From Brevibacillus sp. DP1.3A (lineage in GTDB: Bacteria > Bacillota > Bacilli > Brevibacillales > Brevibacillaceae), in assembly GCF_013284245.2 (NCBI RefSeq), contig NZ_CP085876.1, positions 3,641,001-3,705,000 of the forward strand: DNA of 64,000 bases, in the 5' to 3' direction. The number at the start of each line of letters is the position of its first letter. Positions within the stretch are counted from its first letter, which is position 1. Of the stretch, positions 16,425 to 59,710 are shown one piece after another. The notes below the pieces were generated by a model. It was not told the DNA's origin. It searched no databases and saw only the letters and a list, made by a program, of their open reading frames with translations. Position numbers and translations under genes: made by a program.

Positions 16425-16460
16425 AATCGCCCCTTGTCTATTGTAGACATAGGGACGATT
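16425..16460 (-). terminator. T-box attenuator terminator of tyrS
   Basis: The minus strand carries AATCGTCCC...GGGGCGATT around a GTCTA/TAGAC inner stem, followed by TTTTTGTTTTTT. Its 5' arm lies just after the T-box sequence, as expected for a competing antiterminator. Confidence 0.88.
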
Positions 16461-16688
16461 GAATAACCGTGTTACCACCCATCTTGCACTAATGGACCCA
16501 AGCGCTTGCGCAGGCCATTCATGCCACTCATAGCGAGTTATCGTTCGCGATTCCGCTCGGCATTACCCGAGATACTCCAGAGTGTAATTCGCTCGCTTAT
16601 TGTGTACCGGGTTTCATCAACCCCCGGCTTTCTAGAACAGGGAATAAGCTGCTACTGGGCTCTTTCAACGTATGTTTCATATGAAATT
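16425..16688 (-). promoter_or_regulatory. T-box leader of tyrS (specifier UAC)
   Basis: The minus-strand leader holds the T-box sequence GGGTGGTAACACGG (16467-16480), a stem I distal region with the GGGGGTTGATGAAACCC arrangement near 16605-16626, and a specifier-loop candidate UAC (Tyr) at 16584-16586 followed by ACTCTGGAGT. A terminator hairpin follows. Uncharged tRNA-Tyr would stabilise the antiterminator and permit tyrS transcription, the established T-box mechanism. Confidence 0.9.
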
Positions 16689-57956: not shown

Positions 57957-59435
57957 TTACAGTTCAACAATCTTTGTAGCGATGTTATTGCAGAATTCCC
58001 TGTCATGCTCTACAAAAAGAATCGTTGGCGAATGTTCGAGGAGCAGCTCCTCGATTTGCATGCGAGAAATGACGTCAATAAAGTTTAGCGGCTCATCCCA
58101 AATATGAAGATGTGCTTTCTCGCATAGACTTTTCGCAATGAGTACTTTCTTCTTCTGCCCGCCACTAAAAGCGGAGATATCCTTCTCGAATTGCACCCGG
58201 GAAAAATCCAGCTTGCGCAAAATTGATTTAAACAAGCTCTCTTCGATCTCGTTGTCTCGCGCAAAGTCAGTGAGATTGCCCTTTAGATGGGAAGTGTCTT
58301 GAGAAACATACGAGATTTTCAATTGACTCCCCTTTCTGAAGGTCCCCGTTTGTTGGATGTTCTCTCCGCAAATGAGCTTGAGTATGCTGGATTTTCCTGA
58401 ACCGTTCTTTCCCGCCAGCGCAATGCGCTCTCCTTGCTCAATCGTAAAGTTGACATCTGCGCAGACGAGCCTCTCTCCGTAATAAATCGAGACCTTCTCC
58501 AGTTCGGCTAGTTGATTTTTATGATAAGCAAGCTGTGCAATTTTTAAGCTATCCTGGTTTTCAATGTTTTTGAGTAGCTTCGATTTGTCATCAATCGCGG
58601 ATTGCTGTCGTTTCTCAATCGACTTGGAGCGTTGCATCATTTTCGCAGCCTTGTGTCCAATATACCCTTTGTCTACTTTGGAACCAGAATTTAATGTCCC
58701 GTTTTTCGTCTTTTCCACAGCGTCCGACCAGTTGCTTGTACGTTTGGCTGCGTCCGACAAGCGTTTAATGTCTTTTTTGAGCTTCTCATTCTCAGCGAGT
58801 TCATAGTTATCCTGTCTCTGTTTATTTTCCCACCAATCAGAGAAATTCCCTTTTTGCACCTCGATGTTCGTCTTGTTGATGGACAGGATGTGATCGACAC
58901 AGTTGTCTAGAAATGCCCGGTCGTGAGACACCAAAATATAACCGCTTTTGGAATGAAGATAATCACTGACGAGCTCCCTTGCATGCATGTCGAGGTGATT
59001 GGTTGGCTCATCAATTAACAAAAAACTGTTTTCCTTTAGAAATAAGGCGGCTAACATCACTTTCGTTTGCTCTCCGTTAGACAAAGATTCAAAGGGACGA
59101 TAGAGAACATCCTCAGAAACCTTTAAGAGGGAGAACTCGCGCATTAATTCCCATAACTGATAGTCAGGGACAATGTCTTGAACGATATCAATGGTCAGAT
59201 ATTCTTTGTTCTCGACTTGGAAAGGAAAGTATTCAAAGCTGACATGAGCATTAATCTTTCCACTGTATTCATATTTACCAAGCAACAGATTGAGAAAGGT
59301 CGTCTTCCCTCTCCCGTTTCTTCCCGTAAACCCCAATTTCCAATCCGTATCGATTTGGAAGCTCACGTTTTCAAAAATGTTATCGAAACTGCCTTCATAG
59401 GCAAACGTCAAGTTATTTACATTGATTAATGACAT
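57957..59435 (-). CDS. Lsa-type ABC-F ribosomal protection protein
   Basis: 492 residues, two ABC domains. NBD1: Walker A GRNGRGKTT, signature LSNGEQ, Walker B LLIDEPTNHLD. NBD2: GKNGSGKSS, FSGGQKKK, LHIWDEPLNFID. The interdomain helical linker contains the lysine/serine-rich MMQRSKSIEKR segment of the Lsa group. Lsa proteins displace lincosamides, pleuromutilins and streptogramin A from the ribosome; I place this protein in that group from overall resemblance to Lsa(A)/Lsa(B). AGGAGGATGATT precedes the ATG. A promoter, short leader peptide and attenuator lie upstream. Resistance spectrum is inferred. Confidence 0.9.
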   Translation of the reverse strand: MSLINVNNLTFAYEGSFDNIFENVSFQIDTDWKLGFTGRNGRGKTTFLNLLLGKYEYSGKINAHVSFEYFPFQVENKEYLTIDIVQDIVPDYQLWELMREFSLLKVSEDVLYRPFESLSNGEQTKVMLAALFLKENSFLLIDEPTNHLDMHARELVSDYLHSKSGYILVSHDRAFLDNCVDHILSINKTNIEVQKGNFSDWWENKQRQDNYELAENEKLKKDIKRLSDAAKRTSNWSDAVEKTKNGTLNSGSKVDKGYIGHKAAKMMQRSKSIEKRQQSAIDDKSKLLKNIENQDSLKIAQLAYHKNQLAELEKVSIYYGERLVCADVNFTIEQGERIALAGKNGSGKSSILKLICGENIQQTGTFRKGSQLKISYVSQDTSHLKGNLTDFARDNEIEESLFKSILRKLDFSRVQFEKDISAFSGGQKKKVLIAKSLCEKAHLHIWDEPLNFIDVISRMQIEELLLEHSPTILFVEHDREFCNNIATKIVEL

Positions 59436-59454: not shown

Positions 59455-59495
59455 AAAATAGAAAAGCTACAAGAAAGTTACCCTCTCTTGTAGCT
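59455..59495 (-). terminator. Attenuator terminator in the Lsa-type leader
   Basis: AGCTACAAGA paired with TCTTGTAGCT, loop of 11 nt, followed on the minus strand by TTTCTATTTTT, 20 nt before the ABC-F ribosome binding site. Bases 59470-59481 (minus GTAACTTTCTTG) can pair instead with 59566-59577, perfectly over 12 bp, which would destroy the terminator. Confidence 0.85.
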
Positions 59496-59565
59496 CAAAT
59501 AAATACAGCAAATCCAACTCAAACAAGAGTTAGATATGGATATATTGATTGAGTGAAAAGATAAT

Positions 59566-59640
59566 GTAACTTTCTTGCGTATAAAGAATAAAACATGCGA
59601 AGGATTTCGCTTTTTTGTTTTATTTTTTAGGCAAGAAAAG
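59566..59640 (-). promoter_or_regulatory. Antiterminator arm and leader hairpin of the Lsa-type attenuator
   Basis: Arm CAAGAAAGTTAC (59566-59577) is the antiterminator partner. Its first 8 nt, GCAAGAAA (59571-59578), can alternatively pair with TTTCTTGC inside the leader peptide frame (59631-59638). An AATAAAAC/GTTTTATT hairpin (59587-59624) brings the two together. Ribosome position on the peptide would decide which fold forms. Confidence 0.65.
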
Positions 59641-59647
59641 AATCCAT
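59627..59647 (-). CDS. Six-residue leader peptide of the Lsa-type attenuator
   Basis: ATG GAT TCT TTT CTT GCC TAA (MDSFLA) with AAAGG 5 nt upstream, about 35-40 nt after the promoter. Codons 3-6 contain the sequence that masks the antiterminator arm, so a drug-stalled ribosome here would release that arm. Translation is inferred from position and the ribosome binding site. Confidence 0.6.
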   Translation of the reverse strand: MDSFLA

Positions 59648-59681
59648 TATACCTTTCAGCTCCCGTCATTAATTTAACAGC

Positions 59682-59710
59682 ATTGTATCATATCCAAATT
59701 TTAGTTTCAA
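59682..59710 (-). promoter_or_regulatory. Sigma-A promoter of the Lsa-type ABC-F gene
   Basis: TTGAAA (59705-59710) and TACAAT (59682-59687) with a 17-bp spacer, preceding the leader peptide. Confidence 0.8.

Follow-up and report, generated by a model that had tools for sequence, protein, structure and literature searches.

A putative ribosome-mediated transcription attenuator with a minimal, mostly one-codon uORF upstream of lsa and cfr genes in Brevibacillus, Paenibacillus and relatives

The window analysed here is a 64,000-nucleotide stretch of Brevibacillus sp. DP1.3A (NZ_CP085876.1, positions 3,641,001 to 3,705,000). It carries a gene for an ABC-F ribosomal protection protein that scores 773.6 bits against the NCBIfam Lsa-family model NF000167 (cut-off 750, residues 1-492) and has Lsa(A) as its nearest solved structure (7nhk, E 3.6e-127). 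From this family membership, the protein is predicted to provide resistance to lincosamides, pleuromutilins, and streptogramin A. Upstream of the gene lies a leader (Table 1) in which an intrinsic terminator is placed between a sigma-A promoter and the ABC-F gene, and in which a small uORF with its own Shine-Dalgarno sequence overlaps one side of a predicted anti-antiterminator. The combination of Shine-Dalgarno sequence, ATG, segment 1, and arm 2 occurs only once in the window when both strands are considered.

The first-pass annotation had described four ordered elements (segment 1, arm 2, a complement of arm 2, and a terminator), a six-codon frame reading MDSFLA, and a hairpin between segments 1 and 2, all of which were located on the minus strand. 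The 12-nt complement had, however, been assigned to the 5' region of the terminator, whereas it consists of the last four loop bases and the first eight bases of the terminator's 3' arm. The promoter and the second hairpin with its pause-type motif had been overlooked. Two other candidates were set aside: ATAATG as a -10 box, since the hexamer is not conserved and a better sigma-A promoter is found farther upstream, at an almost constant spacing, and a 63-aa frame from the ATG at 59669 as the sensor, since this ATG is ACG in many relatives and is without a Shine-Dalgarno sequence. Elsewhere in the window, a T-box leader (16448-16677, minus strand, 101.5 bits) is the sole Rfam match at gathering score.

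Table 1. Features of the lsa leader and its surroundings, in window coordinates
Feature	Position	Strand	Remarks
Upstream neighbour gene	59871	+	opposite strand to leader
-35 box TTGAAA	59705..59710	-	17-nt spacing to TACAAT
-10 box TACAAT	59682..59687	-	sigma-A promoter with TTGAAA
Predicted transcription start	~59673-59675	-	
Shine-Dalgarno GGAGCTGA of uORF	59656..59663	-	extended type GGAGNTGA
uORF MDSFLA (ATG GAT TCT TTT CTT GCC TAA)	59627..59647	-	ATG-stop in most relatives
Segment 1 TTTCTTGC, inside uORF	59631..59638	-	5' side of anti-antiterminator
Hairpin between segment 1 and arm 2 (AATAAAACA...TGTTTTATT)	59587..59624	-	
Arm 2 GCAAGAAAGTTAC	59566..59578	-	3' side of anti-antiterminator or 5' side of antiterminator
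Second hairpin ATCTAACTC...GAGTTGGAT	59512..59535	-	resembles vmlR SL-2 pause hairpin
TTNTTT motif (TTATTT)	59497..59502	-	NusG-pause-like; 3' of second hairpin
Intrinsic terminator hairpin	59464..59496	-	14 bp, loop GGTAA; U-rich run to 59452
Segment 3 GTAACTTTCTTG	59470..59481	-	perfect 12-nt complement of arm 2
Lsa-family ABC-F ribosomal protection gene	57957..59435	-	492 aa; downstream of leader

Folding the 276-nt leader gave a predicted energy of -83.3 kcal/mol, whereas 200 dinucleotide shuffles averaged -49.5 +/- 4.4 and none was as low (z = -7.7). The predicted structures contain each of the three proposed pairings (1-2, 2-3, and 3-4), and these would form a mutually exclusive anti-antiterminator, antiterminator, and terminator. 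Arm 2 imitates the 5' arm of the terminator, and segment 1 imitates its 3' arm. As segment 3 comprises the terminator loop and 3' arm, the antiterminator would work by sequestering the nascent 3' arm.

Homologous leaders were gathered by drawing the regions upstream of ABC-F homologues from 110 loci, and a covariance model of the anti-antiterminator (R1) was then searched against whole genomes. Matches were found in 30 of 39 Brevibacillaceae genomes, 208 of 394 from the Paenibacillus family, and 49 of 398 that were sampled from the class, giving a total of 199 distinct leaders from Brevibacillus, Paenibacillus, Cohnella, and relatives; because these leaders are related, their counts are not independent events. 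Terminators are common in intergenic regions, and one could suppose that this one simply ends an upstream transcription unit, with chance complementarity and no regulation. That explanation is very improbable and, as judged by sequence comparison, is already contradicted: the arrangement is conserved in 199 leaders with a promoter, a uORF, and two mutually exclusive folds, the fold z-score is far from that of shuffled sequence, and the upstream neighbour lies on the other strand.

The geometry of the leader is conserved. The best promoter match has a -10 box ending 17-21 nt before the Shine-Dalgarno sequence in 95 of the 109 leaders scored. The constant features that follow are the Shine-Dalgarno sequence, the AUG, and the distance from the AUG to segment 1. 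In an alignment of 77 leaders, the GG of the Shine-Dalgarno sequence is invariant and most of A, G, and TGAA are conserved at 90% or above. The A of the AUG lies 15-21 nt (mode 16) from the end of segment 1. The hairpin between segment 1 and arm 2 is paired in 94.7% of cells, with two pairs changed on both sides. A second hairpin of at least 5 bp is present in 169/184 leaders, and TTNTTT occurs within 28 nt of the terminator stem in 140/184 (135 at one fixed offset), as compared with 5/99 upstream control stretches. Several pairs of the terminator stem covary across 89 distinct terminators, with A-U/G-C and U-A/C-G/G-C exchanges. The 1:2 and 2:3 cores of the aligned leaders, in which TCTTGC of segment 1 and GCAAGA of arm 2 are both invariant, offer no covariation signal, as would be expected where one segment has two partners to match.

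A key finding from the comparison concerns the uORF itself. The window copy has six codons and had been considered unusually short, yet MDSFLA is among the longer forms: in about 80% of relatives, the AUG is followed directly by a stop, without a second sense codon. Among the 181 leaders with a matched terminator, codon 2 is a stop in 145 (TAA 90, TAG 41, TGA 14), and in the first set of leaders the figure was 66 of 90; GGAGTTGAAGAGGATAATGTAATATTTCTTGC is a typical example. UGG was seen as the second codon three times. On an ABC-F tree of 159 proteins, stop identity changed at least 28 times, and start-stop and longer uORFs interchanged at least 13 times. In one of the leaders with TGG as second codon (L157, MWNFLADFIK), the downstream gene is, by its sequence, apparently replaced by one resembling a group II intron reverse transcriptase.

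These data bear on whether the nascent peptide could itself sense the drug in the exit tunnel, as the MsrDL peptide (MYLIFM) does for macrolides. MDSFLA has the same six-codon length as MsrDL (PMC10314930), and MD(S/N)FLA is kept within the closest relatives of the window. Across the family, however, the peptide is variable (MDSFLA, MDNFLA, MDFSC, MDISC, MINLSC, ME, MK) or reduced to M in roughly four of five leaders, and the longer uORFs read TTTCTTGC in different frames (FLA versus FSC/LSC) while its spacing and pairing stay the same. A peptide sensor is thus quite unlikely, and the best reading of the sequences is that the amino acids of the uORF are probably not what is sensed. Since the peptide is not conserved, the arrest site is most likely the start codon. 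The earlier proposal of ribosome-mediated attenuation is accordingly retained, on the strength of the 199 leaders, the covarying terminator, and the predicted switch, but its stall on the peptide is not.

Whether the AUG-stop is translated at all must also be considered. ATAATGTAA could be a mere 5' helix half pairing with arm 2, with the switch operated by a ligand, a protein, or RNA polymerase pausing. Indeed, in most leaders (92.6% of cells) the GUAA following AU forms base pairs with the UUAC in arm 2, and UGA and UAG preserve this pairing by wobble, such that UAA, UGA, UAG, and UGG are all admitted. Conservation of the stop is therefore partly confounded with pairing, and the choice among these four codons was dropped as a demonstration of selection on the stop, because G-U wobble opposite arm 2 tolerates all of them. 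Independent signs nonetheless point to translation. The AUG frame closes within nine codons in 40/40 longer uORFs, as compared with 22/40 in each other frame (reverse-strand or spurious detections, L268 minus, L099 minus, and L210 minus, were left out of this count). In leaders whose AUG is shifted by one codon, the reading frame of the former stop is retained (ATG GAG TAA, ATG AAG TAA), as it is for the GTG of a GTG AAG TAA variant, and a Shine-Dalgarno sequence is held at a near-fixed distance. Moreover, no credible Rfam family was found for the leader at gathering scores or at permissive E-values, and nearly all recognised downstream genes are lsa or cfr, both of which protect the ribosome. 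An untranslated switch is, in our view, unlikely.

We postulate that the leader is a ribosome-mediated transcription attenuator in which the sensor is ribosome arrest at the start codon of the uORF, a reading to which we assign a probability of roughly 0.8. When drug is absent, a ribosome would initiate on the tiny uORF and depart quickly, segment 1 would pair with arm 2, the terminator would form, and transcription would end before the resistance gene. A drug that freezes initiation, such as a pleuromutilin, lincosamide, or streptogramin A (the usual substrates of Lsa proteins), would hold the ribosome on the AUG, where its leading edge would cover segment 1 and leave arm 2 free. Arm 2 could then pair with the emerging terminator loop and 3' arm, and RNA polymerase would read through into lsa. 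In the vmlR leader of Bacillus subtilis, the initiation-complex toeprint lies 16 nt from the A of the uORF start codon (Takada et al., 2022; PMC9226507); together with the 15-21 nt between AUG and segment 1 end, this means that a ribosome waiting on the AUG should just cover segment 1. The distance from GGAG to ATG (8-13 nt, mostly 12) is long, and this counts against start-codon arrest.

Structure prediction is consistent with such a switch. Unmasked minimum-energy folds contain the 1:2 helix in 184/185 leaders, and the terminator forms in 185/185. When the region from the Shine-Dalgarno sequence to +16 was masked to mimic an initiating ribosome, the 2:3 antiterminator was predicted in 185/185 nascent RNAs (those ending at segment 3) and in 142/185 full-length RNAs. 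In the other 43/185 masked full-length folds, the terminator still wins at equilibrium, and the model thus relies on folding order. Among 90 leaders, the number of full-length RNAs that switch rises with the mask edge, from 5 at +3 to 17 at +10, 45 at +12, and 64 at +16. Nascent RNA already switches in 57/90 with the edge at +3, since the AUG region is itself part of the outer helix; the effect of the edge is therefore graded, and these predictions do not prove that the exact footprint edge is critical.

Regulation of this kind is not unprecedented, and assignment of the leader as a putative attenuator of the vmlR/msrD kind is well supported by its architecture, the covarying terminator, and the predicted switch. 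The vmlR leader also has a short uORF with a Shine-Dalgarno sequence in an anti-antiterminator, a pause hairpin with TTNTTT, a terminator, and an ABC-F gene acting against the same drug classes; its uORF start codon is essential, the uORF sequence is partly exchangeable, and NusG-dependent pausing matters (PMC9226507). The likeness is one of architecture: the vmlR uORF has three codons (MIN) whereas most of the family described here has one, the vmlR leader carries a further hairpin that sequesters a Shine-Dalgarno sequence, and the protein in the window belongs to the Lsa subfamily, unlike VmlR. Short uORFs also precede the ABC-F genes of LsaA (MAGN) and cplR (MR[I/M]), and stalling on them after initiation is predicted for the same drug classes (Obana et al., 2023; PMC10201436). 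The LsaA consensus is, however, a four-residue peptide, and cplR also employs translational attenuation. The tool used in that study, uORF4u, has a default minimum of three codons (PMC10219788), a setting at which AUG-stop uORFs would be missed.

Attenuation of msrD likewise involves transcription and a drug-stalled ribosome on a six-codon uORF. There, macrolides cause a peptide-specific arrest after six codons, and the first half of the terminator is occluded directly by the stalled ribosome; an anti-antiterminator of the present kind is not described in the sections drawn on here (PMC10314930). Ribosome profiling of Escherichia coli and Campylobacter has revealed sites at which a stop comes directly, or almost directly, after a start codon, as in most relatives of the leader (PMC11955535). 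The Campylobacter sites are internal and out-of-frame, with only potential functions (PMC11955535), whereas the start-stop described here is conserved in about 145 leaders inside what appears to be a resistance-gene attenuator.

The leader is also associated with cfr. A second, start-stop copy lies outside the window in the same genome (G000:C1:3914575-3914685, minus strand; L121, L273). Downstream of it are the remains of an ABC-F gene, reading ISLIKVTNLTFAYDGRYDNNFENVS and then AKSLYERVHLHLWN before a stop, next a small ORF, and finally the gene of a 343-aa protein that scores 636.8 bits against TIGR04432 (cut-off 550), as expected of a Cfr 23S rRNA A2503-C8 methyltransferase. Full-length cfr is the first recognised gene behind 18 leaders, all of them start-stop, and ABC-F remnants persist in L121, L130, L132, L193, and L261. 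An intact ABC-F gene followed by cfr was found in 12 entries representing 11 distinct loci (L016, at the same position as L135; L047, L048, L055, L085, L086, L089, L092, L099, L103, and L105). The simplest history would be an ancestral leader-lsa-cfr cluster from which lsa was lost and the leader kept for cfr, although the order of events can only be surmised. That the leader is intact behind a dead ABC-F gene argues that it functions. L129, L191, L231, L131, and L121 share a small conserved ORF just before cfr; it has about 36 codons, ends in IDRCT (e.g., MFEVVNVHVNRSLSVSTVHDQTKRMPGHYPSIDRCT), has no Pfam match, and is possibly a second leader peptide for cfr.

We further lean towards regarding these leaders as a widespread attenuator family of Paenibacillaceae and Brevibacillaceae in which the AUG-stop acts as a peptide-free sensor. 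As an AUG-stop has no elongation step, the only drugs expected to trigger it are those that prevent formation of the first peptide bond or release at that codon, such that the sensor may be selective for peptidyl-transferase-centre drugs of this type and ignore elongation inhibitors. One cassette would then serve two unrelated mechanisms, Lsa protection and Cfr methylation, having been passed on when the first gene of the lsa-cfr cluster decayed. While attenuation of the vmlR/msrD kind is already known, a family with mostly one-codon uORFs that is common to lsa and cfr is new; no prior report of a start-stop attenuator, or of a Cfr leader in Brevibacillus or Paenibacillus, was found in the open-access literature.

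If this is true, the AUG-stop would be the smallest possible regulatory ORF serving as a drug sensor, and it would account for the ability of a leader to sense initiation-arresting drugs in the absence of a peptide code. Cfr confers resistance to five drug classes, and because one attenuator would be common to ABC-F and Cfr, silent but inducible copies could escape standard susceptibility tests. Perhaps start-stop uORFs elsewhere have been overlooked as well, given that they are too short for the default settings of a uORF finder employed in the field. The model is easy to test, as few base changes convert start-stop to longer uORFs and both variants exist naturally.

Some leaders stand in other or decayed contexts. 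In two genomes (L134, 505-2155; L124/L271 region), a start-stop leader lies upstream of a gene for a Mor-type regulator and an extra ribosomal protein L4 gene, with matches to PF08765 and PF00573, respectively, in L134; neither lsa nor cfr was found near these leaders. Decay of cfr is seen in L128, where the leader breaks off before the terminator, and in L126, which keeps both leader and terminator before a truncated cfr.
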